NCBI GenBank assembly: GCA_037893245.1
Contig: JBAIAA010000351.1
Span: forward strand, 434,001 to 498,000
DNA from: Crossaster papposus
Taxonomy: Eukaryota > Echinodermata > Asteroidea > Velatida > Solasteridae
Length of the DNA: 64,000 bases
Direction of reading: 5' to 3'
This document shows, one piece after another, positions 6,948 through 64,000 of the stretch. The notes under the pieces are model-generated. The model was not told the origin of the DNA, made no database searches, and was given only the letters and a program-made list of their open reading frames with translations. Every line of letters starts with the position of its first letter. Within the stretch, counting starts at the first letter, position 1. Made by a program: the position numbers and the translations under genes.

Positions 6948-6948
6948 T

Positions 6949-9900: not shown

Positions 9901-10053
9901 TCCCATCGACCCAATGCTACCGGCCTGACCTAATAGCTAAGCTGGATAGAATCCAAGGTATTCATATCCCAATCGACCCAATCCTATCGGCCTGAGCTAA
10001 TAGCTAAGCTGAATAGAATCAACGGTATTCATAACCCCATTGACCCAATCCTA
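6949..10053 (+). repeat. Higher-order duplication, copy 1 (partner 10,769-13,440)
   Basis: This block of satellite is nearly identical to 10,769-13,440. The offset is exactly 3,820 bp before the TTAA element and 3,388 bp after it. Shared private variants include CCGTACTTGC, GAAACTGTCAATATG, ACGGTGAACG and GGATTGAATCC. The copies part at about 10,053/13,441. Confidence 0.88.
8486..8913. mobile_element. TTAA-flanked MITE with CCCTAAC ends (piggyBac-like)
   Basis: A 428-bp insertion in a satellite unit, flanked by TTAA at 8482-8485 and 8914-8917. The ends are CCCTAACCCTCCC and, inverted, CCCTAACTCCC. The interior is a series of diverged short repeats built on GCAGGATTTTGCAGGATT. The equivalent position in the duplicated copy (12,302) has one TTAA and no insertion. 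TTAA duplication and CCY ends are typical of piggyBac-type elements. It is non-coding. Confidence 0.9.
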
Positions 10054-10768
10054 CCGGCCTGACCTAATAGCTAAGCTGGATAGAATCCACGGTATTCATA
10101 TAATAATAATAATTGGGGAGGCTAATCATCCGTACTTGCAGCTGGTGTGCTGAATTGCGAAGGATGCAAGTGACACCCAATGACTGTTCATGTGTCACGT
10201 CACATTAAAGAACCATTTTTTCAAAAGAACCTAAAAACAAATGTAAACATTGGTTTTTATGTTGATTATTTCCTAACGTTTCCAAAAATGTATAGTTTAG
10301 CAAATCTACACAAACAGTGAACGAAACTTTCAATATGTACATTATGAACCTGACTTGGAGGCAAGGGCTTTACACACAAGCCACCCAACCAATCCTATCG
10401 GCTTGATCTGTTAGCTAAGCTTGATAGAATCCAAGGTATTATATTCCCATCGACCCAGTCCTATCGGCCTGACCTTAGCTAAGCTGGATAGAATCCAAGG
10501 TATTCATATTCCCATCGACCCAATCCTACCGGCCTGACCTAATAGCTAAGCTGGATAGAATCCACGGTATTCATATAATAATAATAATTGGGGAGGCTAA
10601 TCATCCGTACTTGCAGCTGGTGTGCTGAATTGCGAAGGATGCAAGTGACACCCAATGACTGTTCATGTGTCACGTCACATTAAAGAACCATTTTTTCAAA
10701 AGAACCTAAAAACAAATGTAAACATTGGTTTTTATGTTGATTATTTCCTAACGTTTCCAAAAATGTAT

Positions 10769-13440
10769 AGTTTAGCAAATCTACACAAACAGTGAACGAA
10801 ACTTTCAATATGTACATTATGAACCTGACTTGGAGGCAAGGGCTTTACACACAAGCCACCCAACCAATCCTATCGGCTTGATCTGTTAGCTAAGCTTGAT
10901 AGAATCCAAGGTATTATATTCCCATCGACCCAGTCCTATCGGCCTGACCTTAGCTAAGCTGGATAGAATCCAAGGTATTCATATTCCCATCGACCCAATC
11001 CTACCGGCCTGACCTAATAGCTAAGCTTGATAGAATCCAAGGTATATCCCAATCGACCCAATCCTATCGGCCTGAGCTAATAGCTAAGCTGACTAGAATC
11101 AACGGTATTCATAACCCCATTGACCCAATCCTATCGGCCTGACCTAATAGCTAAGCTTGATAGAATCCAAGGTATTCATATTCCCATCGACCCAATCCTA
11201 CCGGCCTGACCTAATAGCTAAGCTGGATAGAATCCACGGTATTCATATAATAATAATAATTGGGGAGGCTAATCATCCGTACTTGCAGCTGGTGTGCTGA
11301 ATTGCGAAGGATGCAAGTGACACCCAATGACTGTTCATGTGTCACGTCACATTAAAGAACCATTTTTTCAAAAGAACCTAAAAACAAATGTAAACATTGG
11401 TTTTTATGTTGATTATTTCCTAACGTTTCCAAAAATGTATAGTTTAGCAAATCTACACAAACAGTGAACGAAACTGTCAATATGTACATTATGAACCTGA
11501 CTTGGAGGCAAGGGCTTTACACACAAGCCACCCAACCAATCCTATCGGCTTGATCTGTTAGCTAAGCTTGATAGAATCCAAGGTATTATATTCCCATCGA
11601 CCCAGTCCTATCGGCCTGACCTTAGCTAAGCTGGATAGAATCCAAGGTATTCATATTCCCATCGACCCAATCCTACCGGCCTGACCTAATAGCTAAGCTG
11701 GATAGAATCCACGGTATTCATATAATAATAATAATTGGGGAGGCTAATCATCCGTACTTGCAGCTGGTGTGCTGAATTGCGAAGGATGCAAGTGACACCC
11801 AATGACTGTTCATGTGTCACGTCACATTAAAGAACCATTTTTTCAAAAGAACCTAAAAACAAATGTAAACATTGGTTTTTATGTTGATTATTTCCTAACG
11901 TTTCCAAAAATGTATAGTTTAGCAAATCTACACAAACAGTGAACGAAACTTTCAATATGTACATTATGAACCTGACTTGGAGGCAAGGGCTTTACACACA
12001 AGCCACCCAACCAATCCTATCGGCTTGATCTGTTAGCTAAGCTTGATAGAATCCAAGGTATTATATTCCCATCGACCCAGTCCTATCGGCCTGACCTTAG
12101 CTAAGCTGGATAGAATCCAAGGTATTCATATTCCCATCGACCCAATCCTACCGGCCTGACCTAATAGCTAAGCTGGATAGAATCCACGGTATTCATATAA
12201 TAATAATAATTGGGGAGGCTAATCATCCTTACTTGCAGCTGGTGTGCTGAATTGCGAAGGATGCAAGTGACACCCAATGACTGTTCATGTGTCACGTCAC
12301 ATTAAAGAACCATTTTTTCAAAAGAACCTAAAAACAAATGTAAACATTGGTTTTTATGTTGATTATTTCCTAACGTTTCCAAAAATGTATAGTTTAGCAA
12401 ATCTACACAAACGGTGAACGAAACTTTCAATATGTACATTATGAACCTGACTTAGAGGCAAGCGCTTTACACACAAGCCACCCAACCCAATTCTATCGGC
12501 TTGATCTGTTAGCTAAGCTTGATAGAATCCAAGGTATTATATTCCCATCGACCCAGTCCTATCGGCCTGACCTTAGCTAAGCTGGATAGAATCCAAGGTA
12601 TTCATATTCCCACCGACCCAATCCCACCGGCCTGACCTAATAGCTAAGCTGGATAGAATCCAAGGTATTCATATCCCAATCGACCCAATCCTATCGGCCT
12701 GAGCTAATAGCTAAGCTGAATAGAATCAACGGTATTCATAACCCCATTGACCCAATCTTATCGGCCTGACCTAATAGCTAAGCTTGATAGAATCCAAGGT
12801 ATTCATAACCCTATCGACCCAATCCTACCGGCCTGACCTAATAGCTAAGCTGGATTGAATCCACGGTATTCATATAATAATAATAATAATTGGGGAGGCT
12901 AATCATCCTTACTGGCAGCTGGTGTGCTGAATTGCGAAGGATGCAAGTGACACCCAATGACTTTTCATGTGTCATGTCACATTAAAGAACCATTTTTTTC
13001 AAAAGAACCTAAAAACAAATGTAAACATTGGTTTTTATGTTGAGTATTTCCTAACGTTTCCAAAAATGTATAGTTTAGCAAATCTACACAAACAGTGAAC
13101 GAAACTTTCAATATGTACATTATGAACCTGACTTGGAGGCAAGCGCTTTACACACAAGCCACCCAACCCAATCCTATCGGCTTGATCTGTTAGCTAAGCT
13201 TGATAGAATCCAAGGTATTATATTCCCATCGACCCAGTCCTATCGGCCTGACCTTAGCTAACCTGGATATAATCCAAGGTATTCATATTCCCATCGACCC
13301 AATGCTACCGGCCTGACCTAATAGCTAAGCTGGATAGAATCCAAGGTATTCATATCCCAATCGACCCAATCCTATCGGCCTGAGCTAATAGCTAAGCTGA
13401 ATAGAATCAACGGTATTCATAACCCCATTGACCCAATCCT
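10769..13440 (+). repeat. Higher-order duplication, copy 2 (partner 6,949-10,053)
   Basis: Second copy of the larger block. It lacks the TTAA element present in copy 1 and differs otherwise by only a few substitutions, for example ATCGACC at 11,661 against GTCGACC at 7,841. Confidence 0.88.
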
Positions 13441-13782
13441 ATCGGCCTGACCTAATAGCTAAGCTTGATAGAATCCAAGGTATTCATAACCCCATCGACC
13501 CAATCCTACCGGCCTGACCTAATAGCTAAGTTTGATAGAATCCAAGGTATTCATAACCCCATCGACCCAGTGCTACCGGCCTGACCTAATAGCTAAGCTG
13601 GATAGAATCCAAGGTATTCATATAATAATAATAATAATAATAATTGGGGAGGCTAATCATCCTTACTCGCAGCTGGTGTGCTGAATTGCGAAGGATGCAA
13701 GTGACACCCAATGACTTTTCATGTGTCACGTCACATTAAAGAACCATTTTTTTCAAAAGAACCTAAAAACAAATGTAAACAT

Positions 13783-14124
13783 GTATTCGCATTTTTGTAT
13801 CACTGTGGAGACATGGCTTTGTTCTCGTGTACAAAATGGTTAGAAAGTCGAGCACGTTTTTCAAAATGCTCCCATTTTAACCATATTTTTTTTCCTGGGT
13901 TGAAATTTCGACCCAATATACCCTATATTATACCCATACCCAAACAGTAACCCTAACCCACATCCTAATCCTAGTTTTTGAGTAATTTAAGTAAAATCCA
14001 AAAATCTAATTAGTGAAATTCCCAGTGGAGACCTATTCATCTATAGAAATTTACCCTCTGGAGACGTTTTGTCTTCATTGTACACATTGTGTTCATGTCT
14101 CCAGAGGGTACCGTATTTCGCACC
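13783..14124. mobile_element. 342-bp insert in satellite unit, copy 1
   Basis: Inserted between AAACAT and ATTGG of the spacer, flanked by AT on both sides. The ends are loosely inverted (GTATTCGC and, inverted, GGTGCGAAATAC), and both lead into GGAGACATG. Near the right end there is a hairpin with 14-base arms, TACCCTCTGGAGAC. It is probably a non-autonomous transposon of unknown family. The ORF across its left edge (13,711-13,950) looks like chance. Confidence 0.72.
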
Positions 14125-14797
14125 ATTGGTTTTTATGTTGAGTATTTCCTAACGTTTCCAAAAATGTATAGTTTAGCAAATCTACACAAACGGTGAACGA
14201 AACTTTCAATATGTACATTATGAACCTGACTTAGAGGCAAGCGCTTTACACACAAGCAACCCAATACTATCGGCTTGATCTGTTGGCTAAGCTTGATAGA
14301 ATCCAAGGTATTATATTCCCATCGACCCAGTCCTATCGGCCTGACCTTAGCTAAGCTGGATAGAATCCAAGGTATTCATATTCCCATCGACCCAATCCTA
14401 CCGGCCTGACCTAATAGCTAAGCTTGATAGAATCCAAGGTATATCCCAATCGACCCAATCCTATCGGCCTGAGCTAATAGCTAAACTGACTAGAATCAAC
14501 GGTATTCATAACCCCATTGACCCAATCCTATCGGCCTGACCTAATAGCTAAGCTTGATAGAATCCAATGTATTCATAACCCCATCGACCCAATCCTACCG
14601 GCCTGACCTAATAGCTAAGCTGGATAGAATCAACGGTATTCATATAATAATAATAATAATTGGGGAGGCTAATCATCCTTACTCGCAGCTGGTGTGCTGA
14701 ATTGCGAAGGATGCAAGTGACACCCAATGACTGTTCATGTGTCACGTCACATTAAAGAACCATTTTTTCAAAAGAACCTAAAAACAAATGTAAACAT

Positions 14798-15139
14798 GTA
14801 TTCGCATTTTTGTATCACTGTGGAGACATGGCTTGGTTCTCGTGTACAAAATGGTTAGAAAGTCGAGCACGTTTTTCAAAATGCTCCCATTTTAACCATA
14901 TTTCTTTTCCTGTGTTGAAATTTTGACCCAATATACCCTATATTATACCCATACCCAAACAGTAACCCTAACCCACATCCTAATCCTAGTTTTTGAGTAA
15001 TTTAAGTAAAATCCAAAAATCTAATTAGTGAAATTCCCAGTGGAGACCTATTCATCTATAGAAATTTACCCTCCGGAGACGTTTTGTCTCCGTTGTACAC
15101 ATTGTGTTCATGTCTCCAGAGGGTACCGTATTTCGCACC
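14798..15139. mobile_element. 342-bp insert in satellite unit, copy 2
   Basis: The same insert at the same site in the next unit, with the same length and a few substitutions (for example CTCCGGAGAC for CTCTGGAGAC). Identical insertion points mean the second copy arose by duplication of the satellite unit, not by a new insertion. Confidence 0.75.
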
Positions 15140-16240
15140 ATTGGTTTTTATGTTGAGTATTTCCTAACGTTTCCAAAAATGTATAGTTTAGCAAATCTAC
15201 ACAAACGGTGAACGAAACTTTCAATATGTACATTATGAACCTGACTTAGAGGCAAGCGCTTTACACACAAGCAACCCAATACTATCGGCTTGATCTGTTA
15301 GCTAAGCTTGATAGAATCCAAGGTATTATATTCCCATCGACCCAGTCCTATCGGCCTGACCTTAGCTAACCTGGATATAATCCAAGGTATTCATATTCCC
15401 ATCGACCCAATGCTACCGGCCTGACCTAATAGCTAAGCTGGATAGAATCCAAGGTATTCATATCCCAATCGACCCAATCCTATCGGCCTGAGCTAATAGC
15501 TAAGCTGAATAGAATCAACGGTATTCATAACCCCATGGACCCAATCCTATCGGCCTGACCTAATAGCTAAGCTTGATAGAATCCAAGGTAATCATATAAT
15601 AATAATAATAATAATAATTGGGGAGGCTAATCATCCTTACTCGCAGCTGGTGTGCTGAATTGCGAAGGATGCAAGTGACACCCAATGACTTTTCATGTGT
15701 CACGTCACATTAAAGAACCATTTTTTCAAAAGAACCTTAAAACAAATGTAAACATTGGTTTTTATGTTGAGTATTTCCTAACGTTTCCAAAAATGTATAG
15801 TTTAGCAAATCTACACAAACAGTGAACGAAACTTTCAATATGTACATTATGAACCTGACTTGGAGGCAAGCGCTTTACACACAAGCCACCCAACCCAATC
15901 CCATCGGCTTGATCTGTTAGCTAAGCTTGATAGAATCCAAGGTATTATATTCCCATCGACCCAGTCCTATCGGCCTGACCTTAGCTAAGCTGGATAGAAT
16001 CCAAGGTATTTATATTCCCATCGACCCAATCCTATCGGCTTGATCTGTTAGCTGAGCTTGATAGAATCCAAGGTATTCTTATTCCAATCGACCCAAGTCA
16101 TTCAGTCGTAAAGTCAAGTCACTCTTATTTCATTATTCAAATGAACTTGTGACAAAACAATTCAGAGATGAAACTTCAGATATCAATCGGAAATTTAAAG
16201 CAGGAATTTAAAAAAAAAAAATTGCTGTATTTTATTGCAG

Positions 16241-20119: not shown

Positions 20120-20545
20120 TGAACCAGAATAAAGGGGAAGATATACTATCTCGTCTCATCCTCAACCGGCTACAGTCATCCCAAAAAGTCAATGTGCTTT
20201 TGTGCCTCGCGTGGCACAGTTGGCATGATGTTTTCGGGTCAACAACTCCAGGAAAAGTGCAGAGAACAACATCCTGACCTCTTCATTGTCTTCATCGACC
20301 TGACAAAGGCCTTTGACTCAGTCAGCCAGGAAGGTCTGTGGAAGCTTCTGTACAGGGCTGGCTGCCCATCCAAGATAATTAACATCATCAGATTCTTCCA
20401 CGATGGTATGGTTGCCCGTGTGAGGTTGCGGCTCTAGGTCCATCTAGCCCATTTCCTGTTACCAACGGCACTAAACAGGGCTGTGTCCTAATACCATTGC
20501 TCTTTAGCAGTGTTTTTTCATTCATGCTCCGTTATGCTTTCAACA
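20120..20545 (+). pseudogene. Non-LTR retrotransposon reverse transcriptase fragment
   Basis: Fragments of RT translate in order but in shifted frames. GEDILSRLILNRLQ comes at about 20,132. In the open stretch 20,192-20,437, RGTVGMMFSGQQLQEKCREQ leads to LFIVFIDLTKAFDSV (the palm motif A with its first catalytic Asp) and then IRFFHDGMVARV. After a TAG stop come PVTNGTKQGCVL and PLLFS (RT motif B). The YxDD motif and both ends are missing. It is a dead LINE piece lying in a CCDC87 intron, possibly related to the minus-strand LINE at 31.4-33.8 kb. Confidence 0.88.
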
Positions 20546-29071: not shown

Positions 29072-29310
29072 GCACACGTTACCAGTTTGCATTGGAGGAT
29101 GTGTATACACGCAAAGTTTTCCGGAATTAAAAACGGATGACAGTTAAACACGTCACAAGCAAGGCCAGAAATATCTGTCAGCAACTGGCTCGCAGTGCAA
29201 CATCAGGGTATGCTACCCACAGATGCCAGCCTGAACACGTCTCGGTTTGTAAAAAGCAATCCTGCTTCTGGGCCCGGTCAATGTCAAAATAATGCAGGAG
29301 CAAACTTGTC
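29072..29310. mobile_element. CCAGTT-family MITE, copy 2
   Basis: Shares with 22,781-23,007 and 46,323-46,550 the ordered motifs CCAGTT, GTGTATACACGCAAAGTTTT, AAGGCCAGAAATATC, GCTACCCACAGATGCC and AATGTCAAAATAATGC. The right end is diverged. Confidence 0.7.
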
Positions 29311-29596
29311 GAAGAATCCTGGATTAGGTGCGTCAAACTGGGCATGACTGACACGAGCCTGGTGTTGCCTCGGAAAATGACTCTTGCCGAATTTAGTGCT
29401 ATAGGCGTTGAACCTTTTTATTTTTTTGTGATGAGTGTTTATAAATCTGTCCTTATGTTCTTATGTTCTTATATATTTGAGACCGACATTGCAAAAATAG
29501 TGTCTAGAAGCAGAGGAAAATACAGTTTTGTTTTTAATAATAAATAATAAATGTTCCTACCTAAAAAGTTCAACAGCATTAAAAATCATTGTGTCA

Positions 29597-29835
29597 GTCA
29601 GGTTGGCGCAGTGGTTCTTCTCTTTCCTTTTTGTATATGGCATGGGTTAGATTCCTGCCCTGGTCCACATGTGGATTGGGTTTTCAGTTCCTGCTTTATT
29701 GTTTGTCTAAGATTTCCTCCCACCTCTGAAACTGAACGCTTCTTCATTGAATCTTCTTTCACAGTTTTCTATAGACTTGTGCGCTATATAGTGCCTTAGG
29801 AATTTTGTGAGAGATCCTTGGTTTCATCAAAGATT
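29597..29835 (+). mobile_element. tRNA-derived SINE, family B, copy 1
   Basis: TTGGCGCAGTGGTTC (box-A-like) and GGGTTAGATTCCTGCCC (box-B-like), then TGGTCCACATGTGGATTG, a T-rich tail, and GAGAGATCCTTGG near the end. A diverged copy lies at 41,355-41,625. Confidence 0.75.
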
Positions 29836-36574: not shown

Positions 36575-38750
36575 ATGAGTGAATCAGAAGATGATGAAGA
36601 CTTGCCACATGACCCAATTGAAAATGAGCCTGCAGATGTCATTGTGGACACTGATTCTTTGTCAACAACATTCATCTTAGGATTGAGGGGAAAGTATAAA
36701 CTCAATCATGAGGCATGCAGTTATGTTGCTGAGGAAACACAGAATGTACTCCGATTAGCAAGAGAAAATTTACAGAAGAAAGCAAGAAATCTGTTGCCTG
36801 AAGTACAGGAAGCTGAACTAGATGGTATTTTTAGTTCTTCAGAATTGGAACAGTCATTCAGTTTTATCCGAAACATGGCCAATCTGAACTCCTACATTAA
36901 ATAAAATTTTGATCTTGTTGAACCAGTGGAGCATATGATGGGAAGGAAACCAAACGGCAAAGTGCAGAGCGTTCAGTATGTCAGTATTCTACAGACACTG
37001 CAGGCCCTTTTAAAGGATGATAATATTTTTGCTGAGGTAATCCAGGGACATCAAAGTGACCAATTACATGTAGTTAGAGACCATTGTGATGGTTTGAACT
37101 ACAAAAGTCACTCACTGTTTTCACTGCCAAGTCCAACTATCCAGGTTATTCTTTACAATGATGACTTTACAGTGGCTAATCCCATAGGAAACCGAGTTAA
37201 GCAGCTTAAGTTTTCTGGTTTTTATTTTTTTGTGGGGAATATGCTGCCACAAAATCGGTCTAAGCTGTCCTCTATTCAGCTTGCTCTTTTGTGCCAGTCG
37301 GAGATAATTTCACAGTATGGAATGTCTCGCGTAATAAGTCCTCTAATTGAAGATTTGAAAACCCTTGAGACTGTTGGTGTGGATGTTGAAAAGGACGGTG
37401 TCGTGCATACTTTTAGAGGAACCCTCTCTATGTTCGTCGCAGACAACTTGGCTGCACACGGCATTGGGGGCATTCAGGAAAGTTTCAATACTCGACGCTT
37501 CTGTAGGTTTTGCAAAGTCACAAAGACAAATGTTAAAAACTATTTTCGGGATGTTGACCTTGTTTCAAGAAGTAGAGATTCTTACAATGAACAAGTTGAA
37601 ATAGTTCGGCAAATGCCAGAAGTTGCTTGCATATATGGGGTGAAAAAGGACAGTCCATTGAATGCGTTGGATCATTATCATGTTGTAGATGGACTTCCTT
37701 CAGATGTGGCTCATGACTTGTTTGAAGGTGTAATTCCAGAAGTCATGAAAAAGGTAATTCTTCATTGTGTCGAGGAAGAATATTTCACACTGCAGTTCTT
37801 AAACGAAGAAATCAAGAATTTTCCGTATTCGGGAACAGACAAGACAAACAAGCCTTCTAAAATGGCAACACAGTTTGCCTCATTCAGTGTAAAGCAGAAA
37901 GCTGTACAGTCTTGGTGTTTTCTTCGTCTCTTGCCTTTGATGGTCGGAAGCAAAGTACCGGTTGGTGATGAAATGTGGGCAGTTCTTTTCTTACTTGAAG
38001 AAGTAGTGCAATTGTGTACTGCACATACAGTGGATCCAGCTCTTTGTGATTTCCTTGCTGATTGAAATGTTTCTGGAGAAATACTTCACTCTATTTCCTG
38101 AAGATTCTATGAAACCCAAGTTTCATTATATTATCCACTATCCCAAATTGATGCTAACATTTGGCCCACTTGTCCATTGTTGGACACTAAGGTTTGAAGG
38201 AAAACACTTGTATTTCAAAGAACTGTCCCACCACACCAAAAACAGACGAAATCTTTCAAAGACACTTGCAACCAGACATGAATACTATCAGGCATGGATG
38301 AGAGCTACTCATACAGGTTTTGTTGATGCTGTTGAGCACACTGGTGGGAATTTGTTGCTGGTACGGCTGCTGTTACGACCAATACAGGAAACACTTCAGC
38401 CACTGCTTGGGGACAATGAATTCGTTTATGTTGCAAAGAAAGTGCAGTGTAACATCACATGGTACAGTCAAGGTTTGGTAGTTGCTGTAGGAACGACACC
38501 AAGAGGTTTTGTTCAGTTTGGTGTGATTGAGCTTTGTTGTCTAATAGGCGGCAGCGTATATCTTGTTTGCAAGCCAGCTACAAATACTTGATTTGTATCC
38601 CACATCCATGCTTTTGAGTTGACACTTTCTGCTAATGATTTTGTAGTGAAGGTTTCAGATCTGCTTGACCACTATGCACTCGGTGTCTACAATAGTGACA
38701 ACGGTAAAATAGTTGTGCCACGTCATCATATAAATATTCCTGAGTTTTGA
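36575..38750 (+). pseudogene. Transposase-like gene (Tnp2-like family), intronless, broken
   Basis: About 720 codons in one run with three breaks. An acidic N-terminus (MSESEDDEDLPHDPIENEP) leads to a TAA at 36,902, after which the same frame continues (NFDLVEPVEHMMGRKPNG). The body carries the family's hallmarks: YNDDFTVANPIGN, FYFFVGNMLPQNRSKL, IQLALLCQSEI, LIEDLKTLETVGV, FRGTLSMFVADNLAAHGIGG, RFCRFCKVTK (Cys pair), LPSDVAHDLFEGVIPEVMKK. A frameshift at about 38,045-38,062 is followed by KFHYIIHYPKLM, then FGPLVHCWTLRFEGKH. A TGA at 38,589 precedes a tail ending IVVPRHHINIPEF at 38,748. The family occurs as multicopy 'uncharacterized proteins' in fish and invertebrates and recalls CACTA-type Tnp2. 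No terminal repeats were located. Confidence 0.8.
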
Positions 38751-50856: not shown

Positions 50857-51677
50857 ATCCAACGTTATCTAGCTCGTGCAGCAGATGCACGACGTACATG
50901 TACATGTGCACAAGACGCTGTTCCCGGGTACCCGGCTCGTGCAGTACACGCATGGCCAACACACGAGCGTGCATAATCGCTGGTATCATGGTACATAGAA
51001 GTACACGTATTATGGCCATGGCCGTATATGGGTTAGCCAAGGTGTATTAATTGTACATGTACAATGTACATGTACTGCACGTGGACGACGTACGTTGTTC
51101 ATGCATTTGGGCCACAGTGCGCGATGCATGGGGGTGGATTTGAATGGCGCTTTCGAGAACGTCGTCACAGGGGCGGAACATTTTAAAGTTTTATATTGTT
51201 TGTAGGCCTATTTTATAATTATAGTTTTCCATTTTTATAGATCTTTATTTTTGATCACGTAAGTATTCAAGTACTTATGATAAGATGTGCGTATATATAC
51301 TCTCAAATATAGGGGTGCTTTAGTATTGCAGCACCCCCACCCCAAAATCCGTCCTAGGGGGGCGGCAGCACCCCCTGCACCCCCTGTTCCCGCGTGCCTG
51401 ACGAGGGGAGTAGGCCGAATGGCAGAAACGTTTCAGTGTAGATTTTAGTAACAGGTTCCTTCTGGGGCTGGGAATTAGATACCACAACACTAATTACAGA
51501 TAAGCTAGCAATCTGTATCATAATCTTGATTTTCATTTGTTGCTACTTTATGCCCATTTCGTGGTAACAACATCAGGTCACATATATCATTTTAACTCTT
51601 TTAGGGTAAAAAGATTACTAAGCAGCTCATCCACCAAGATCTTTTATCAGAGCAACGTGGTGCCTTGTTCTAAAATA
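50857..51677. other. Region upstream of TRMO exon
   Basis: GTACATGTACATGT-type palindromes at 50,896-51,075 and the short repeat GCAGCACCCCC at about 51,330-51,370. This may include the TRMO 5' UTR or promoter, but no TATA box or other element could be fixed. Confidence 0.45.
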
Positions 51678-51931
51678 ATGGAAGATCAAGAAATTCAGCA
51701 TCATCCACACGATGTCACTCTCCACCAGTGGGGTCAGACTCGACAAGTGACCCAGAAACATCTTGGCCTATCGCCGATTGGATTTATCAAGTCGTGTTTC
51801 AAGAGCAAGAACGGCACTCCTCGTCAGCCGTCCATCTGTGCCTTTTCAAGAGCCAAGCTGACGGTGCTAAAAGAGGTCTTCCCCAATCAGGAGCATTCCG
51901 TCCAGGGTTTAAGCCAATTTTCCCACATTTG
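51678..51931 (+). CDS. TRMO: TRMO exon: tRNA (N6-threonylcarbamoyladenosine37-N6)-methyltransferase, N-terminal part
   Basis: TRMO (TsaA/UPF0066 fold) methylates the N6 of t6A at position 37 of certain tRNAs, using S-adenosylmethionine. The frame from ATG 51,678 (MEDQEIQHHPHDV…) reaches SPIGFIKSCFKSKNGTPRQP, then SICAFSRAKLTVLKEVFPNQ and EHSVQGLSQFSHIW. This follows human TRMO closely as I recall it ('VGYLESCFSAKNGTPRQP…NPEHSLMGLEQFSHVW'). The CF-KNGTPRQ motif is the family's N-terminal signature. The frame is open upstream to 51,537, with an acceptor-like TTTTAG at 51,605, so the start is not certain. The exon seems to end TTTG|GCGAGT, a GC-type donor: joined to 55,858 it restores W-ILFI, as in the human W-ILFV. 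Confidence 0.9.
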
Positions 51932-53700
51932 GCGAGTCTCAAGACAGTCACTATGTAGATGTAGATGGTACCAAGGAAGTGTTTTCCAAGGTCCGCATAC
52001 ACTGTTAAGAGGGATACTGTAGTTCTGAAGATGTTTTTAGATTCGGCCATCAGCCAGCTTTGCATTTTCACAATAACTGTTTCTTCCCAATGGCACATTG
52101 TATATGCTAGCTAATTTTGAATGTTATCACACTAACAACTGACAGGTATGGGTGGGATCAAGTCAGCTAGTGAAACCATATATCAGGCCAAAAAAACCAA
52201 ATAAATTAGTTTCTCATCCTCGCGCACATCCTTTTTTGCTGCTGCATCAAAACAATTTGTTTATATTTGTATTTGTTTCGCATCGTCACTTTTCTCCCGA
52301 TCTTAATTGTTCTCGTTTGCATTTTTTTAGAAGAGTGAAGCCTTATTATTATCATATGACGCGACACTATACAGTGTGGCAGGCCTGGAATTACAATTAC
52401 AATTTGTTTAGGGAAAGGCCACTTTGGCCTTGGAGTATTCAAAATTTGGGAGGGCACCAAGGCCAGTAGGAAGGGCGCCAAGGCCAAAATTTGAAAATAA
52501 AAAGGGTATGTCGCTGTATATACCACTAAAATAACGAGACGAAGTCCGTGGACCCATTACCCCTATTTATTTCGCACACCGCTGATGCAGGCAGGTGAAA
52601 ACTAAAGCAAAATACACAAAATAGTTATTATTAAGCATTATAATTTAAAGAAATACAAATGTGCAATAAAATAATTACATTAGGTTTGGAGAAAATTGGG
52701 CAGCACCTTGTCGGCAAAATCAGTTACAGAGGAGCAACAATCAATCAGTTATGAAAATAAAGAAACCCGTATATAAACTTACAATCGTTCCCGGGGTAAG
52801 GGATCGTCCGCACACACAGCGAGATAAACAGGAATTTACGGCGGCATTCTGGGGTGCTGCACAAATAATAAATACACGTATATAATTCAACAAATACCAC
52901 TATAATTCTAGTAATTTGCAATTACTAACCCAAACTAAGAATTTATATTTGTTTCCCCGACGCACCATGAACTATAAAGGGCGTTGGCTCTGAGGAATGT
53001 TCGGATATTTCTAGTGTACATTAAAAGGCTTATAAACTAGAAGGCAAACAATTTAACAGCAATATAAACCTTAAGATAAATGCTTCCATGTAAATTACAT
53101 CTTCGGAAATAAACATGATATAAATCAAAGGTAAAAATACTTACAAATGGTTGACTACAGAAAGAACGAAGTGAGTTGGTTGGGAGCGTGAACGCAACTG
53201 ACTCAATCCCTCCCCGCGCGCCTCGGTGGTTAAGTGGGGCAACCAGAAATTACGTAATTACATACCAAACATGCTCAGACCTACGGCTTATGCAAATAAG
53301 AGAACAATCATTTAACAGATGGAAAAATACATAGCGGTGACGATAACAGGGTACGAAGGCCACTTAGTTATGAAAGTTATAAAACAAACTACAACCAACG
53401 GCGAACTACTTTGTTGATTCGACACTAAAACAGGCCTCTTTATTGAACAAGTTTCCAAGATAATAACTATTGATCCGTTGAACATTGTTACTCTATTAAA
53501 TTCTTGTAGTTTAATCCGAAAAGTTTTGGACGGTGAAGGGATTCATTCACTAAAAAAGTTTTTCTAGTCATGCGGTGCAACAATTCCACCAGAAGAGGGC
53601 GTTCAAACAACAGAGAGCGCCCTCTGTTGGTCAATGTTTTTATTTTAGACTGGTCCCTTGTTTAAAGACGTCGGGTGTTCGTGTACAACGCGAACGGGTG
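51932..53700. other. TRMO intron, first part
   Basis: No gene seen. Small ORFs on both strands at 52,152-52,526 are not protein-like. Confidence 0.6.
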
Positions 53701-54320
53701 CCGAGCACTGACCTCAACACCTGGACAGATCATTGTCCATATTCTGCTGTGCTAACACTTGAAGTCGGCGCGAACTGGAAGTGCAACATGGCGTCACTGC
53801 TGTGAGCCAATGAAATGTCCAGTTGTAGAGGTCAGTGGATTTACCAACCAACTGAACTCTACACCTGGACATTTCATTGGCTCACAGCAGTGACGCCATG
53901 TTGCACTTCTCTGCATGCCGACTTCAAAATGAAACAATGGATGATCTGTCCATGTATAGAGGTCAGTGGTGCCGAGAGAGTCGCGAATGCGTTGAACGCA
54001 CTGACCTCTATACATGGACAGATCATCATTGTTCTATTTTGAAGTCGGCATGCGGAGAAGTGCAACATGGCGGACCCACGACGTCACTCTGTGAGCCAAT
54101 GAAATGTCTAGGTGTTGGTACGATACGTATTACGTAATGTTTATAAATACAAAACGTACAGAGTAAATCCACTAACCTAGGCTCTACACTGGACATTTCA
54201 TTGGCTCACAGCAGTGACGTCTCGGGTCCGCCATGTTGCACTTCCAGTTCGCGCCGACTTCAAGTGTTAGCACAGCAGAATATGGACAATGATCCGTCCA
54301 GGTGTAGAGGTCAGTGGTTG
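53701..54320. repeat. Compound palindrome: four alternating copies of a ~120-130-bp module
   Basis: The module runs from TGACCTCTACACCTGGACAG through ACTTGAAGTCGGC, AGTGCAACATGGCG and GTGAGCCAATGAAATGTCC. It appears at about 53,708-53,835 (+), 53,857-53,972 (-), 53,998-54,113 (+) and 54,180-54,315 (-). Copies 1 and 4 share GTGCTAACACTTGAAGTCGG and GCGCGAACTGGAAG. Copies 2 and 3 share CATGTATAGAGGTCAGTG and GCATGC. So an inner palindrome (2/3) is nested inside an outer one (1/4). All small ORFs with TDLYTWTDH belong to this repeat. Confidence 0.9.
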
Positions 54321-55857
54321 AACGTAAACAATTTACGCTAGTGCAACTTCCTTTGACTCGTTCGAGCGGATTGCGCTGCACGTACAAACTTATCGCGGAA
54401 ATTCCCATATGCAAATTAGGTGAACAGCGCCGCTCATTATGACGTCATCGTACGTTCTCGCTTTACGCGCGTCATCGCCTTCGGCCACTTCCGGGTAGGT
54501 ACGGACTCGTTTCAGTTTAATGAATGAATCATTATGCATCGGGTACTGCACATGCGTAGTGATGGTATGAGAAAAAGCTAAGATGGCCGCTGTCTAGTAG
54601 TGCTGAAAAAAGATTCCGAATCGGTGGAGTTTGGGTGAGTTATTGACAGTTTAAAAACTGTTTGCGTCTTCCTTTTTTGGAACTCAAAGTTCAGAGAGTC
54701 CATATTTGTAATAATGTTATTCTTTCTCACCAAATTTCTTTGAAAATCAAGCGATTTAGTTCCGAATAGTTCATTTGTTTAGCTGTCGAATGGTGTTACA
54801 CACGTGGGTAATCGGATTGATAGTGCGATGGTCGCGAGCAATATGCATGGCCATTTTTAGATGAAACTCCCAAAATTTGCCAATAATTCTCAAAGGATCA
54901 CGTGATAAACTACACGCGGCGTGTGAACGCATCAAGTTACATCGATGCATTGTTATGGAAATTGAGCGGCGGCGCATCGTTAAATATAGAATGACTGGAG
55001 GGGAATGACCAGCAAATTGGCGGGACAATCTTACGTCACAAAAGTCACTGATAATTTTGGGCATCAAATGAGTGCAAGTGCGCAGGCGTGCAAATTCCCG
55101 CATGATTTATGGGACAGGTTTGTAAAACTAACACAAGTAAATAACGCGCCGGAAAACTGGTGTCGATTTTCCTTGATTTGCAGGTCAAGAATTGATCGTG
55201 AATACCTTAGAAGTTCGTTAACTCAGCTTGGATACATATGGAAGGTTATTTAGACGATTTGTGTGGATTTTGGCGACATTTTGAACCACATTCAAGACAT
55301 AATCATTCGTCAATATTCTTCTGGCTCGGCCTCTAGTAGCGCAAGATAATGCCCAAATGTAAAAAAAGCGATAACTAGAAGCCAGTAACTCGGTCTACAC
55401 CACACCGTGTTTTGTCGCACCGAAAAATAACTAGCTATTTACTTTACAAAATAGGGTCTGGAGCTAAAATTACTAGCCCAAATCAATATATCTTGGTATC
55501 AGTTTTCTTGTAGAAAGATTCTCCATCCATTGGTATAGGTAGTTTTGGCCTCATGGAAGTGGAAGTATGCTTGTTCGTTGAGATATTATGCTTGTTGGTT
55601 TTTTGGGGGGCCACCCTGTGTAAGTTTCTCTATACAAACACATCAAGCCAACGTCAAGCTCCCCAAAAATGTCCCCATCTTCCGCTTTTAAAAATAGTTA
55701 GGACGAGAAACATTTTTTTATTTGGCCTAACAGACCAGTTTTCACTGGTTGCGATGAGTTACCACTCAGCAATTCAGAATCAAGAACCATTGAGTTTTAG
55801 GTAAAATAAGTCTGGGACTTCAATAATTGCGCCCCAAATTGTATGTGTAATTTGCAG
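54321..55857. other. TRMO intron, last part
   Basis: Around 54,575-54,590 AAGCTAAGATGGCCGCTG resembles a YY1-type promoter motif, within a moderately CpG-containing stretch (54,420-54,600). That is suggestive of a promoter for an alternative start but is not strong. No exon was recognised. Confidence 0.4.
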
Positions 55858-56017
55858 GATACTATTCATCTCCACAAGAATGGTGATGGGAGGTTCACCA
55901 AGGCCAAAGTGAAGCCGCCTCGTTTAGACGGAGCCAAGGTTGGGGTTTTCGCCATCCGCAGTCCCCATCGACCCAATCCTATCGGCCTGACCTTAGCCAA
56001 GCTGGATAGAATCCAAG
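55858..56017 (+). CDS. TRMO: TRMO exon: SAM-binding TsaA core, with a one-base deletion
   Basis: Acceptor TAATTTGCAG, donor CAAG|GTATTC. From 55,873 the frame reads HKNGDGRFTKAKVKPPRLDG, then AKVGVFAIRSPHRPNPIGLT and LAKLDRIQG. This is the TsaA core; RSPHRPNPIGL is the family's SAM-site signature, matching human 'TRSPHRPNAIGLTLAKLE' as I recall it. The first four codons (ILFI, 55,859-55,870) are in another frame. Two bases (55,871-55,872) stand where a Phe codon belongs, so one base is missing relative to the family. As read, the spliced mRNA would be frameshifted before the catalytic core: a pseudogene, a null allele, or a sequence error. The last ~54 bases are the source of the adjacent satellite. 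Confidence 0.9.
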
Positions 56018-56365
56018 GTATTCATAACCCCATCGACCCAATCCTATCGGCCTGACCTAGTAGCTAAGCTGGATAGAATCCAAGGTATTCATAACTCCAT
56101 CGACCCAATCCTATCGACCTGACCTAATAGCTAAGCTGGATAGAATCCAAGGTATATCCCAATCGACCCAATCCTATCGGCCTGAGCTAATGGCTAAGCT
56201 GAATAGAATCAACGGTATTCATAACCCCATTGACCCAATCCTATCGGCCTGACGTAATAGCTAAGCTTGATAGAATCCATGGTATTCATAAACCCATCGA
56301 CCCAATCCTACCGGCCTGGCCTAATAGCTAAGCTGCATAGAATCCACGGTATTCATATAATAATA
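55964..56365 (+). repeat. Exon-tail minisatellite, ~66-bp unit, six copies
   Basis: The first copy is the exon end itself (CCCATCGACCCAATCCTATC through GGATAGAATCCAAG plus donor GTATTC). Five copies follow directly in the intron, differing by substitutions and by ACCTAATAGCTAAG in place of ACCTTAGCCAAG; the latter adds in-frame stops. Each keeps the AATC(C/A)A(A/C/T)GGTAT splice-donor context. They are the most divergent and presumably oldest copies. Confidence 0.95.
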
Positions 56366-59300
56366 ATAATTGGGGAGGCTAATCATCCTTACTCGCAGCT
56401 GGTGTGCTGAATTGCGAAGGATGCAAGTGACACCCAATGACTTTTCATGTGTCACGTCACATTAAAGAACCATTTTTTCAAAAGAACCTAAAAACAAATG
56501 TAAACATTGGTTTTTATGTTGATTATTTCCTAACGTTTCCAAAAATGTATAGTTTAGCAAATCTACACAAACAGTGAACGAAACTTTCAATATGTACATT
56601 ATGAACCTGACTTGGAGGCAAGCGTTTTACACACAAGCCACCCAACCCAATCCTATCGGCTTGATCTGTTAGCTAAGCTTGATAGAATCCAAGGTATTAT
56701 ATTCCCATCGACCCAGTCCTACCGGCCTGACCTAATAGCTAAGCTGGATAGAATCCAAGGTATATCCCAATCGACCCAATCCTATCGGCCTGAGCTAATG
56801 GCTAAGCTGAATAGAATCCATGGTATTCATAACCCCATCGACCCAATCCTACCGGCCTGACCTAATAGCTAAGCTGGATAGAATCCAAGGTATTCATATA
56901 ATAATAATAATTGGGGAGGCTAATCATCCTTACTTGCAGCTGGTGTGCTGAATTGCGAAGGATGCAAGTGACACCCAATGACTTTTCATGTGTCACGTCA
57001 CATTAAGGAACCATTTTTTTCAAAAAAACCTAAAAACAAATGTAAACATTGGTTTTTATGTTGATTATTTCCTAACGTTTCCAAAAATGTATAGTTTAGC
57101 AAATCTACACAAACAGTGAACGAAACTTTCAATATGTACATTATGAACCTGACTTGGAGGCAAGGGCTTTACACACAAGCCACGCAACCAATCCTATCGG
57201 CTTGATCTGTTAGCTAAGCTTGATAGAATCCAAGGTATTATATTCCCATCGACCCAGTCCTATCGGCCTGACCTTAGCTAAGCTGGATAGAATCCAAGGT
57301 ATATTCCCATCGACCCAATCCTACCGGCCTGACCTAATAGCTAAGCTGGATAGAATCCACGGTATTCATATAATAATAATAATTGGGGAGGCTAATCATC
57401 CTTACTTGCAGCTGGTGTGCTGAATTGCGAAGGATGCAAGTGACACCCAATGACTGTTCATGTGTCACGTCACATTAAAGAATCATTTTTTCAAAAGAAC
57501 CTAAAAACAAATGTAAACATTGGTTTTTATGTTGATTATTTCCTAACGTTTCCAAAAATGTATAGTTTAGCAAATCTACACAAACAGTGAACGAAACTTT
57601 CAATATGTACATTATGAACCTGACTTGGAGGCAAGGGCTTTACACACAAGCCACCCAACCAATCCTATCGGCTTGATCTGTTAGCTAAGCTTGATAGAAT
57701 CCAAGGTATTATATTCCCATCGACCCAGTCCTATCGGCCTGACCTTAGCTAAGCTGGATAGAATCCAAGGTATTCATATTCCCATCGACCCAATCCTACC
57801 GGCCTGACCTAATAGCTAAGCTGGATAGAATCCAAGGTATTCATATCCCAATCGACCCAATCCTATCGGCCTGAGCTAATAGCTAAGCTGAATAGAATCA
57901 ACGGTATTCATAACCCCATTGACCCAATCCTATCGGCCTGACCTAATAGCTAAGCTTGATAGAATCCAAGGTATTCATATAATAATAATAATTGGGGAGG
58001 CTAATCATCCTTACTTGCAGCTGGTGTGCTGAATTGCGAAGGATGCAAGTGACACCCAATGACTGTTCATGTGTCACGTCACATTAAAGAACCATTTTTT
58101 CAAAAGAACCTAAAAACAAATGTAAACATTGGTTTTTATGTTGATTATTTCCTAACGTTTCCAAAAATGTATAGTTTAGCAAATCTACACAAACAGTGAA
58201 CGAAACTTTCAATATGTACATTATGAACCTGACTTGGAGGCAAGCGCTTTACACACAAGCCACCCAACCCAATCCTATCGGCTTGATCTGTTAGCTAAGC
58301 TTGATAGAATCCAAGGTATTATATTCCCATCGACCCAGTCCTATCGGCCTGACCTTAGCTAAGCTGGATAGAATCCAAGGTATTCATATTCCCATCGACC
58401 CAATCCTACCGGCCTGACCTAATAGCTAAGCTGGATAGAATCAACGGTATTCATATAATAATAATAATTGGGGAGGCTAATCATCCTTACTTGCAGCTGG
58501 TGTGCTGAATTGCGAAGGATGCAAGTGACACCCAATGACTGTTCATGTGTCACGTCACATTAAAGAACCATTTTTTCAAAAGAACCTAAAAACAAATGTA
58601 AACATTGGTTTTTATGTTGATTATTTCCTAACGTTTCCAAAAATGTATAGTTTAGCAAATCTACACAAACAGTGAACGAAACTTTCAATATGTACATTAT
58701 GAACCTGACTTGGAGGCAAGGGCTTTACACACAAGCCACCCAACCAATCCTATCGGCTTGATCTGTTAGCTAAGCTTGATAGAATCCAAGGTATTATATT
58801 CCCATCGACCCAGTCCTATCGGCCTGACCTAATAGCTAAGCTTGATAGAATCCAATGTATTCATAACCCCATTGACCCAATCCTACCGGCCTGACCTAAT
58901 AGCTAAGCTGGATAGAATCCACGGTATTCATATAATAATAATAATTGGGGAGGCTAATCATCCTTACTTGCAGCTGGTGTGCTGAATTGCGAAGAATGCA
59001 AGTGACACCCAATGACTGTTCATGTGTCACGTCACATTAAAAAACCATTTTTTCAAAAGAACCTAAAAACAAATGTAAACATTGGTTTTTATGTTGATTA
59101 TTTCCTAACGTTTCCAAAAATGTATAGTTTAGCAAATCTACACAAACAGTGAACGAAACTTTCAATATGTACATTATGAACCTGACTTGGAGGCAAGGGC
59201 TTTACACACAAGCCACCCAACCAATCCTATCGGCTTGATCTGTTAGCTAAGCTTGATAGAATCCAAGGTATTATATTCCCATCGACCCAGTCCTATCGGC

Positions 59301-62300
59301 CTGACCTTAGCTAAGCTGGATAGAATCCAAGGTATTCATATTCCCATCGACCCAATCCTACCGGCCTGACCTAATAGCTAAGCTGGATAGAATCCACGGT
59401 ATTCATATAATAATAATAATTGGGGAGGCTAATCATCCTTACTTGCAGCTGGTGTGCTGAATTGCGAAGGATGCAAGTGACACCCAATGACTGTTCATGT
59501 GTCACGTCACATTAAAGAACCATTTTTTCAAAAGAACCTAAAAACAAATGTAAACATTGGTTTTTATGTTGATTATTTCCTAACGTTTCCAAAAATGTAT
59601 AGTTTAGCAAATCTACACAAACAGTGAACGAAACTTTCAATATGTACATTATGAACCTGACTTGGAGGCAAGGGCTTTACACACAAGCCACCCAACCAAT
59701 CCTATCGGCTTGATCTGTTAGCTAAGCTTGATAGAATCCAAGGTATTATATTCCCATCGACCCAGTCCTATCGGCCTGACCTTAGCTAAGCTGGATAGAA
59801 TCCAAGGTATATTCCCATCGACCCAATCCTACCGGCCTGACCTAATAGCTAAGCTGGATAGAATCCACGGTATTCATATAATAATAATAATTGGGGAGGC
59901 TAATCATCCTTACTTGCAGCTGGTGTGCTGAATTGCGAAGGATGCAAGTGACACCCAATGACTGTTCATGTGTCACGTCACATTAAAGAATCATTTTTTC
60001 AAAAGAACCTAAAAACAAATGTAAACATTGGTTTTTATGTTGATTATTTCCTAACGTTTCCAAAAATGTATAGTTTAGCAAATCTACACAAACAGTGAAC
60101 GAAACTTTCAATATGTACATTATGAACCTGACTTGGAGGCAAGGGCTTTACACACAAGCCACCCAACCAATCCTATCGGCTTGATCTGTTAGCTAAGCTT
60201 GATAGAATCCAAGGTATTATATTCCCATCGACCCAGTCCTATTGGCCTGACCTTAGCTAAGCTGGATAGAATCCAAGGTATTCATATTCCCATCGACCCA
60301 ATCCTACCGGCCTGACCTAATAGCTAAGCTGGATAGAATCCACGGTATTCATATAATAATAATAATTGGGGAGGCTAATCATCCTTACTTGCAGCTGGTG
60401 TGCTGAATTGCGAAGGATGCAAGTGACACCCAATGACTGTTCATGTGTCACGTCACATTAAAGAACCATTTTTTCAAAAGAACCTAAAAACAAATGTAAA
60501 CATTGGTTTTTATGTTGATTATTTCCTATCGTTTCCAAAAATGTATAGTTTAGCAAATCTACACAAACAGTGAACGAAACTTTCAATATGTACATTATGA
60601 ACCTGACTTGGAGGCAAGGGCTTTACACACAAGCCACCCAACCAATCCTATCGGCTTGATCTGTTAGCTAAGCTTGATAGAATCCAAGGTATTATATTCC
60701 CATCGACCCAGTCCTATCGGCCTGACCTTAGCTAAGCTGGATAGAATCCAAGGTATTCATATTCCCATCGACCCAATCCTACCGGCCTGACCTAATAGCT
60801 AAGCTGGATAGAATCCACGGTATTCATATAATAATAATAATTGGGGAGGCTAATCATCCTTACTTGCAGCTGGTGTGCTGAATTGCGAAGGATGCAAGTG
60901 ACACCCAATGACTGTTCATGTGTCACGTCACATTAAAGAACCATTTTTTCAAAAGAACCTAAAAACAAATGTAAACATTGGTTTTTATGTTGATTATTTC
61001 CTAACGTTTCCAAAAATGTATAGTTTAGCAAATCTACACAAACAGTGAACGAAACTTTCAATATGTACATTATGAACCTGACTTGGAGGCAAGGGCTTTA
61101 CACACAAGCCACCCAACCAATCCTATCGGCTTGATCTGTTAGCTAAGCTTGATAGAATCCAAGGTATTATATTCCCATCGACCCAGTCCTATCGGCCTGA
61201 CCTTAGCTAAGCTGGATAGAATCCAAGGTATATTCCCATCGACCCAATCCTACCGGCCTGACCTAATAGCTAAGCTGGATAGAATCCACGGTATTCATAT
61301 AATAATAATAATTGGGGAGGCTAATCATCCTTACTTGCAGCTGGTGTGCTGAATTGCGAAGGATGCAAGTGACACCCAATGACTGTTCATGTGTCACGTC
61401 ACATTAAAGAATCATTTTTTCAAAAGAACCTAAAAACAAATGTAAACATTGGTTTTTATGTTGATTATTTCCTAACGTTTCCAAAAATGTATAGTTTAGC
61501 AAATCTACACAAACAGTGAACGAAACTTTCAATATGTACATTATGAACCTGACTTGGAGGCAAGGGCTTTACACACAAGCCACCCAACCAATCCTATCGG
61601 CTTGATCTGTTAGCTAAGCTTGATAGAATCCAAGGTATTATATTCCCATCGACCCAGTCCTATCGGCCTGACCTTAGCTAAGCTGGATAGAATCCAAGGT
61701 ATTCATATTCCCATCGACCCAATCCTACCGGCCTGACCTAATAGCTAAGCTGGATAGAATCCACGGTATTCATATAATAATAATAATTGGGGAGGCTAAT
61801 CATCCTTACTTGCAGCTGGTGTGCTGAATTGCGAAGGATGCAAGTGACACCCAATGACTGTTCATGTGTCACGTCACATTAAAGAACCATTTTTTCAAAA
61901 GAACCTAAAAACAAATGTAAACATTGGTTTTTATGTTGATTATTTCCTATCGTTTCCAAAAATGTATAGTTTAGCAAATCTACACAAACAGTGAACGAAA
62001 CTTTCAATATGTACATTATGAACCTGACTTGGAGGCAAGGGCTTTACACACAAGCCACCCAACCAATCCTATCGGCTTGATCTGTTAGCTAAGCTTGATA
62101 GAATCCAAGGTATTATATTCCCATCGACCCAGTCCTATCGGCCTGACCTTAGCTAAGCTGGATAGAATCCAAGGTATTCATATTCCCATCGACCCAATCC
62201 TACCGGCCTGACCTAATAGCTAAGCTGGATAGAATCCACGGTATTCATATAATAATAATAATTGGGGAGGCTAATCATCCTTACTTGCAGCTGGTGTGCT

Positions 62301-64000
62301 GAATTGCGAAGGATGCAAGTGACACCCAATGACTGTTCATGTGTCACGTCACATTAAAGAACCATTTTTTCAAAAGAACCTAAAAACAAATGTAAACATT
62401 GGTTTTTATGTTGATTATTTCCTAACGTTTCCAAAAATGTATAGTTTAGCAAATCTACACAAACAGTGAACGAAACTTTCAATATGTACATTATGAACCT
62501 GACTTGGACGCAAGCGCTTTACACACAAGCCACCCAACCCAATCCTATCGGCTTGATCTGTTAGCTAAGCTTGATAGAATCCAAGGTATTATATTCCCAT
62601 CGACCCAGTCCTATCGGCCTGACCTTAGCTAAGCTGGATAGAATCCAAGGTATTCATATTCCCATCGACCCAATCCTACCGGCCTGACCTAATAGCTAAG
62701 CTGGATAGAATCCACGGTATTCATATAATAATAATAATTGGGGAGGCTAATCATCCTTACTTGCAGCTGGTGTGCTGAATTGCGAAGGATGCAAGTGACA
62801 CCCAATGACTGTTCATGTGTCACGTCACATTAAAGAACCATTTTTTCAAAAGAACCTAAAAACAAATGTAAACATTGGTTTTTATGTTGATTATTTCCTA
62901 ACGTTTCCAAAAATGTATAGTTTAGCAAATCTACACAAACAGTGAACGAAACTTTCAATATGTACATTATGAACCTGACTTGGAGGCAAGGGCTTTACAC
63001 ACAAGCCACCCAACCAATCCTATCGGCTTGATCTGTTAGCTAAGCTTGATAGAATCCAAGGTATTATATTCCCATCGACCCAGTCCTATCGGCCTGACCT
63101 TAGCTAAGCTGGATAGAATCCAAGGTATTCATATTCCCATCGACCCAATCCTACCGGCCTGACCTAATAGCTAAGCTGGATAGAATCCACGGTATTCATA
63201 TAATAATAATAATTGGGGAGGCTAATCATCCTTACTTGCAGCTGGTGTGCTGAATTGCGAAGGATGCAAGTGACACCCAATGACTGTTCATGTGTCACGT
63301 CACATTAAAGAACCATTTTTTCAAAAGAACCTAAAAACAAATGTAAACATTGGTTTTTATGTTGATTATTTCCTAACGTTTCCAAAAATGTATAGTTTAG
63401 CAAATCTACACAAACAGTGAACGAAACTTTCAATATGTACATTATGAACCTGACTTGGAGGCAAGGGCTTTACACACAAGCCACCCAACCAATCCTATCG
63501 GCTTGATCTGTTAGCTAAGCTTGATAGAATCCAAGGTATTATATTCCCATCGACCCAGTCCTATCGGCCTGACCTTAGCTAAGCTGGATAGAATCCAAGG
63601 TATATTCCCATCGACCCAATCCTACCGGCCTGACCTAATAGCTAAGCTGGATAGAATCCACGGTATTCATATAATAATAATAATTGGGGAGGCTAATCAT
63701 CCTTACTTGCAGCTGGTGTGCTGAATTGCGAAGGATGCAAGTGACACCCAATGACTGTTCATGTGTCACGTCACATTAAAGAATCATTTTTTCAAAAGAA
63801 CCTAAAAACAAATGTAAACATTGGTTTTTATGTTGATTATTTCCTAACGTTTCCAAAAATGTATAGTTTAGCAAATCTACACAAACAGTGAACGAAACTT
63901 TCAATATGTACATTATGAACCTGACTTGGAGGCAAGGGCTTTACACACAAGCCACCCAACCAATCCTATCGGCTTGATCTGTTAGCTAAGCTTGATAGAA
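56366..64000 (+). repeat. Right 475-bp satellite array
   Basis: About 16 units of the same 475-bp satellite as the left end, in the same orientation, running off the right window edge. A variant with GGTATATTCCC in place of GGTATTCATATTCCC (2-4 bp shorter) appears at 57,220, 59,728, 61,149 and 63,521, followed each time by AAGAATCATTTTTT. Units 59,728-61,148 repeat from 61,149 on (1,421-bp offset, sharing CCTATCGTTTCC), so three-unit blocks were duplicated. The recurring 67-codon frame (HRPSPIGLTLAKLDRIQG) is a residue of the TRMO exon. Downstream TRMO exons, if any, lie beyond the window. Confidence 0.97.

Follow-up and report, generated by a model that had tools for sequence, protein, structure and literature searches.

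Probable staged origin of a higher-order satellite from a coding exon of TRMO in a probable echinoderm genome

The stretch of DNA that has been analysed here, which we refer to as the window, comprises 64,000 nucleotides (C351:434001-498000) of a genome assembly of 1.02 Gb in 1841 contigs. It raises a question about the birth of satellites: the end of a coding exon of the gene TRMO, splice donor included, stands at the head of a tandem series that continues into a satellite array, and it has to be asked whether the satellite has descended from the exon and, if it has, at which copy of the exon and by which steps. The answer at which we have arrived, and which we hold to be highly probable, is a staged birth of the satellite from the coding exon of TRMO. 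The window comprises one body and parts of two arrays of a macro-tandem repeat, with the following features.

1-16093, + strand: left array, with 104 modules and 27 spacers; tail of the array of the preceding macro-unit (see below)
16094-51428, no strand assigned: body of the macro-unit, between the arrays
51429-52381, + strand: copied TRMO segment that includes exon 1
51678-51931, + strand: TRMO exon 1 (TrmO_N profile positions 1-40, E 0.0013, below the curated cut-off)
52382-55410, no strand assigned: stretch of ~3 kb in TRMO intron 1, opposite which the alignment to the TRMO locus of contig C217 has only ~160 nt
55858-56017, + strand: copy of TRMO exon 2, 160 nt long where the complete loci have 161, with a 1-nt deletion near its 5' end
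56018-56019, + strand: GT donor of exon 2
55964-56357, + strand: six consecutive modules at a spacing of 62-68 bp, namely the exon tail with its donor, followed by five copies in the former intron
56359-56637, + strand: first 279-bp spacer
56638-64000, + strand: right array, a higher-order satellite with a unit of mostly 475 bp (modules A, B and C plus the spacer), running past the end of the window

The exon at 55858-56017 matches the Pfam family TrmO_N (E 1.8e-14, profile positions 41-89) and four chains of the PDB (E from 6e-7 to 4.5e-4). The donor of exon 1 is GC in the window and GT in both complete TRMO loci of the assembly, which are located on contigs C162 and C217; with exon 2 frameshifted and this GC donor, the window holds no complete open frame of TRMO, and a TrmO_N profile search of the assembly contigs has found no exon 3 on C351. 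Judged by its sequence, the TRMO of the window is a frameshifted, truncated pseudogene copy. Motif searches in six frames have found nothing convincing as a next TRMO exon in the window, and we have rejected the idea that the left array lies in an intron of a second TRMO of the window, exon 3 being placed only on C162 and C217.

The module consists of the last ~55 nt of exon 2 and ~11 nt of intron, the splice donor included, and it is found six times at the exon edge, as the exon copy plus five, in agreement with the original prediction. A module profile search of the whole window has identified 159 modules, all on the + strand: the exon copy, 104 modules in the left array and 54 in the right array. 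Besides the exon, the 158 modules take 43 distinct forms, one of which is cut by the end of the window, and in all 43 a GCC of the exon has become GCT; the first module after the exon differs from it at only three positions. The local alignment of the exon tail with these 158 modules yields scores of 52-116 (median 102; 126 for the exon tail against itself), compared with at most 21 for 300 random 65-mers from the unique body, at most 25 for 300 shuffled exon tails and at most 14 for the unrepeated 5' part of the exon; since the modules score far above all three controls, their likeness to the exon is not due to chance. It had also been predicted that the intron copies carry stops, which is the case for most of them, but 40 of the 158 keep a frame that is open in the phase of the exon. 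The GGT of the donor is kept in 155 of the 158 window modules, one of the three misses being the module that is cut by the window end, and in 40 of the 42 listed module forms; the corresponding counts are 18 of 21 modules at C217, 9 of 11 at C162 and 19 of 24 at C116, a further exon-2 locus. These differences in retention are uninformative, because copies of a few forms inflate the count for the window, and we have drawn nothing from them about selection on the copied donors.

Within the two arrays, groups of modules alternate with spacers of 279 bp, of which 43 have been counted (27 left and 16 right, four of them split by insertions), matching the expectation of about 43 units. The composition of the unit, which had been described as three module-derived blocks in every 475 bp, is correct for the ABC units that make up long stretches of both arrays, but the number of modules per unit varies from 3 to 7: units with 4-7 modules, typically ABCDEC, are located towards both of the array ends that are visible in the window, and in the left array three-module (ABC) units occupy the leftward part, while three-module units are mixed with units of 5-7 modules from ~7000 to the right edge. 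Among the unbroken spacers, 39 in number, the mean difference is 2.8 positions when both come from the left array, 2.2 when both come from the right and 2.6 across the arrays, and left and right share one full 475-bp unit letter for letter; we conclude that both arrays are of the same kind and that recent exchange or copying has maintained their likeness. Long homogenised arrays of multi-monomer units, as in satellites with higher-order repeats, are thus present in the form of the 475-bp units, and an 8-kb sample of the same contig (L046), taken ~40 kb past the window exon, consists of the 475-bp repeat over 8000 of its 8000 bases.

Centromeric and pericentromeric satellites form large homogeneous arrays with more diverse ends, and the arrays described here have the same appearance. 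By analogy, the arrays might serve a chromosomal role, for example a centromeric or pericentromeric one, that favours their growth; this explanation is compatible with a staged birth from the TRMO exon, but we regard it as unlikely, and the arrays probably have no function.

Several local observations have been made in the arrays. A 944-bp stretch of the left array that contains rare module variants occurs twice, at 9090-10033 and 12478-13421, in letter-identical form and 3388 bp apart. Four insertions are located inside spacers of the left array, at about 6363-6949, 8486-8913, 13794-14121 and 14809-15136; the first is bounded at both ends by inverted copies of CAGGGTGTCTCT, and the last two are near copies of each other, which indicates that an array segment was itself duplicated with its insert. 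The spacer contains a 36-bp imperfect palindrome (e.g. at 56485-56520) that is 83% self-complementary, and the inserts at 13794 and 14809 break the spacer at about the site of the palindrome. On contig C267, spacer matches extend over more than 100 kb (1436382-1541340), possibly one of the longest arrays, and the same contig has an exon-2 copy at 1575408.

Beyond the window, the DNA searches of the assembly (spacer, junction, body, flank and interspersed family) each cover the best 40 candidates scored, and their counts are lower bounds. The junction between array and flank is found in its full 501 bp at no fewer than seven places on C351 and at least two on C377, and the flank of the macro-unit recurs on further contigs as well. 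Successive junctions on C351 are separated by 124901, 85154, 126831, 120591, 130235 and 179120 bp; a body probe is found on C351 at seven or more places, on the same strand and in step with the seven junctions, with periods that agree with those of the junctions within 5 kb. In the assembly, this body probe (29300-29800) has at least 32 matches at 98-100% identity, one of which is the window itself, and at least 8 at 90-93%. The distance from the junction to exon 2 on C351 is 39.8-45.0 kb in six of the seven units; in the departing unit, exon 2 (182554), which is of the one-stop type described below, lies 69.6 kb past the junction. The next junction follows exon 2 on C351 at a distance of 45-137 kb. 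The macro-unit thus consists of a ~40-kb body with TRMO exons 1 and 2, followed by 45-137 kb that we attribute to satellite, the attribution beyond the window resting on the one 8-kb sample (L046). Head-to-tail units of many kilobases, the hallmark of a macrosatellite, are therefore found on C351, and, given the recurring junction and its periods, the best interpretation of the left array of the window is that it ends the array of the preceding unit. The macro-repeat may total several megabases, as estimated from the 42 exon-2 places without exon 3 multiplied by ~125 kb.

As to genes in the body, a Pfam comparison of 16097-46000 in one of the three + strand frames has returned only a weak RVT_1 match below its cut-off, and single frames and pieces of the body have returned RVT_1 below its cut-off and chance-level matches only; the reverse transcriptase (RVT_1) piece is located at ~20200-20395. 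A 386-residue open frame at 36905-38065 has no Pfam match at E up to 1.

The exon-2 places are spread over 17 contigs, and the matches of the body probe at 90-93% identity, at least eight in number, lie on six contigs; such a spread could be produced by a mobile element that had captured TRMO exons 1 and 2 with the minisatellite and multiplied, the tandem macro-structure being secondary. We consider this quite improbable, as junction, body and exon follow one another on C351 in an unchanged order, always on one strand and at largely matching periods, as in tandem amplification. Near the complete TRMO of C217, the body and flank probes match at 1826495 and 1839061, i.e. at ~32 and 20 kb from the gene and on the opposite strand; an assembly of the amplified unit from this neighbourhood is suggested.

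The TrmO_N profile search of the assembly, in which all 94 of 94 candidates have been scored, has given 75 matches at E up to 1. Of these, 44 (including three partial ones) are places of exon 2, two are places of exon 3, and 29 are weak matches to exon 1 that stay below the curated cut-off. The exon 1 of C162 and that of C217 are absent from the list, so the search misses weak exons. Exon 3 (profile positions 84-116) is placed on C162 and C217, each time downstream of an exon 2, leaving 42 exon-2 places without exon 3. Both loci are open through exons 1-3 (961 and 952 nt), the C217 product covers TrmO_N positions 1-116 with an E of 2.8e-42, and another exon probably follows the third. The intron that follows exon 2 bears 11 modules in C162 (4, a 2.5-kb interruption and then 7; intron of 3707 nt) and 21 in C217 (intron of 1877 nt). 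The two loci may be alleles or paralogues; the gene of V-ATPase D, used as a single-copy test, is found as one multi-exon locus, which hints at a haploid assembly as far as one gene goes.

Two other contigs have been characterised in passing. Contig C8 (at least 5.2 Mb) holds an intronless COX1 frame of 682 residues and a V-type ATPase D frame of 209 residues, and resembles a contig of bacterial origin within the assembly. Contig C1841 is mitochondrial: in its COX1, a conserved Asn is encoded by AAA, Ser by AGA and Trp by TGA, ATA stands at Ile sites, and ND4L-like and COX2-like frames come next. This is the code of echinoderms and flatworms and, taken with the gene order, makes an echinoderm the probable host.

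We have compared the surroundings of the best-scoring 30 of the 44 exon-2 places. Modules follow exon 2 in all 30 and precede it in none, within the DNA read, and the window, C162 and C217 have the same 65-bp exon tail, letter for letter; the descent of the modules from the end of the TRMO coding exon and its donor, as originally predicted, is borne out by this identity and by this one-sided placement. Exon 2 is intact in two loci (C162 and C217), 160 nt long and frameshifted in 20, the window copy among them, and 161 nt long with one stop in the remaining 8. Spacers occur within 1.5 kb in 27 of the 30, the exceptions being C162, C217 and C116. A maximum-likelihood tree of 418-bp stretches from the 30 loci separates the 28 broken copies from C162 and C217 with a support of 92/88, which is below the star level of the tool, with a bootstrap that had not settled and a midpoint root that serves for drawing only.

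These comparisons bear on the copy at which the satellite was born. The original prediction placed its birth at the window exon, from which it would have spread, and the presence of six modules along the edge of the exon, with a first copy only three positions away from it, would fit such a beginning; this reading is largely refuted, and we give it very little credence, since the window exon is frameshifted in a truncated pseudogene and is one of the 42 places without exon 3, and since the introns of the complete loci C162 and C217 already contain the minisatellite without spacers. That the macro-repeat is mainly an assembly artefact, with haplotypes or collapsed repeats placed end to end, is highly improbable: stretches of hundreds of bases are identical between several copies, and copies at ~100% identity could in part be assembly duplicates, but the distance from exon to next junction varies between copies (45-137 kb), exon 2 occurs in two broken types, and eight exon-2 places are located in one contig of 1.08 Mb.

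The step from the minisatellite to the higher-order satellite is represented at C116, where exon 2 has one stop and is followed by 24 pure modules, which end with types D, E and C ahead of the first spacer. Six of the next eight inter-spacer intervals hold six modules, four of these reading ABCDEC, and five intervals measure 673-674 bp. With its pure modules followed by mostly six-module units, C116 is, on the order of its modules, a locus that keeps the intermediate stage. The first module after the window exon, the commonest form of class E and two class C modules are at distance 0 from C116 modules; the common form of class C (29 copies) is at distance 1 from one of them, and class B is two changes away from the intact exon. 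For class A, the first module of most units, no close parent has been found among the modules read in C162, C217 and C116: it has at least 11 differences from every pre-spacer module read there, with the exception of one class A module, at the array edge (16017), which is at distance 7; this leaves a gap in the staged account.

The source of the spacer has been sought in the same loci. That the spacer is the original TRMO intron has been rejected, since no + strand spacer occurs in either complete locus within the 10 kb read at each. The minus strand of C217 contains one weak match, of 66 bases (E 8.2e-8), which covers the first ~66 nt of the spacer, and no source has been identified for most of the spacer beyond this likeness of ~66 bp. 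The 201-base stretch around the match (L040 8980-9180) is a member of an interspersed family, for which at least 39 further matches at 70-86% identity have been found (best 40 of 69 candidates scored); most of these matches include no more than a part of the spacer-like 66 bases. As a lead, this suggests that a mobile element may have contributed to the spacer.

From the observed sequence relations, the C116 intermediate, the truncation and the periodicity of C351, we infer the following order of events, with slippage or repair, unequal exchange or conversion as putative drivers. In a complete TRMO, the end of exon 2 and its donor would have been tandemly duplicated within the downstream intron, as in exon stuttering. 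Exon 1, exon 2 and the start of the minisatellite would then have been copied away without the later exons, and would have decayed. In a third stage, the 279-bp sequence would have landed in the minisatellite, near its end; the spacer with six modules (ABCDEC, ~673 bp) would have spread as a higher-order unit, and the loss of three modules would have led to the ABC unit of 475 bp, which would have been homogenised. Lastly, array and body would have been amplified together as a macro-tandem repeat of 85-180 kb.

Repeats that share single traits with this system are known. The macrosatellite D4Z4 consists of 3.3-kb units that contain gene sequence, and shares with the C351 repeat the tandem array of long units with gene sequence; it differs in that the period here is 85-180 kb and, as far as read, is largely satellite derived from the gene's own exon. 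In the Epstein-Barr virus, viral repeats contain exons. The human interferon-induced gene 6-16 (IFI6) reportedly has a minisatellite that gives multiple splice donor sites (Turri, 1995), a short repeat of dodecamer type that is said to be confined to one gene. A minisatellite unit that contains a splice donor is common to both cases, but here the ~67-bp unit is an exon tail and has grown into a satellite, whereas that of IFI6 is not known to be either.

In satellites at large, adjacent monomers join into homogenised higher-order units, and the seeds that are named in the passages available of a review are rDNA spacers and transposable elements (PMC5615363); the higher-order units are shared with the satellite of the window, whereas no coding-exon seed is mentioned in those passages, the word "exon" occurring once in the whole text of the review (PMC5615363). 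The closest system is the exon stuttering of bird genes, published in February 2026, so that the claim that such a process is not described does not stand for the first step. As reported there, the edge of a coding exon and its splice donor or acceptor are copied through the adjacent intron in genes that are mostly located on chicken dot chromosomes, gerbil genes being mentioned as data not shown; the copies are imperfect tandems, their source is within 1 base of the exon border in more than 90% of cases, and they number 1-44, span 112-23,555 bp, stay strictly between exons and have a GC-rich setting (PMC12954441).

With the bird genes described there, the TRMO loci share the copying of a lateral part of the exon with its splice site into the adjacent intron (21 modules in C217, 4+7 in C162), and a source that reaches the exon border, the unit here spanning the donor. 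Confinement between exons is seen at C162 and C217, where exon 3 lies downstream, but not in the window, which lacks exon 3 and whose array extends in the direction of the next macro-unit. The setting is not GC-rich, as it is in the bird genes described: the GC content is 0.418 at the C162 locus, 0.416 at the C217 locus and 0.403 in the window (0.454 in exon 2 plus modules of C217). The present case also differs from the bird genes, as far as these are described there, in being from a probable echinoderm, in having 158 modules in one window and higher-order units, and in having been amplified outside the gene, where the exon itself is broken. Among the best-ranked matches in the open-licence literature, mostly titles and abstracts, we have recognised no second minisatellite with splice donors and no coding-exon-seeded satellite besides that paper, and a search of this literature for stuttering of exonic sequence has returned PMC12954441 only. 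What is new here is the probable echinoderm host, the ordinary GC content, the higher-order units and the amplification beyond the intron, the first step being already known.

The origins of satellites are usually lost because their parents have been erased; here the parent exon, an intermediate and mature arrays are present in one assembly, so that the order of the steps can be tested. We lean towards the view that exon-edge stuttering is a general mutational process that is able to seed satellites, and that this genome keeps the whole lineage of one of them. The occurrence of exon stuttering in a probable echinoderm, in a region of ordinary GC content, speaks against a need for GC-rich dot chromosomes, and the complete TRMO loci, with their arrays of copied donors, offer a natural test of the choice of the spliceosome among near-equal donors.
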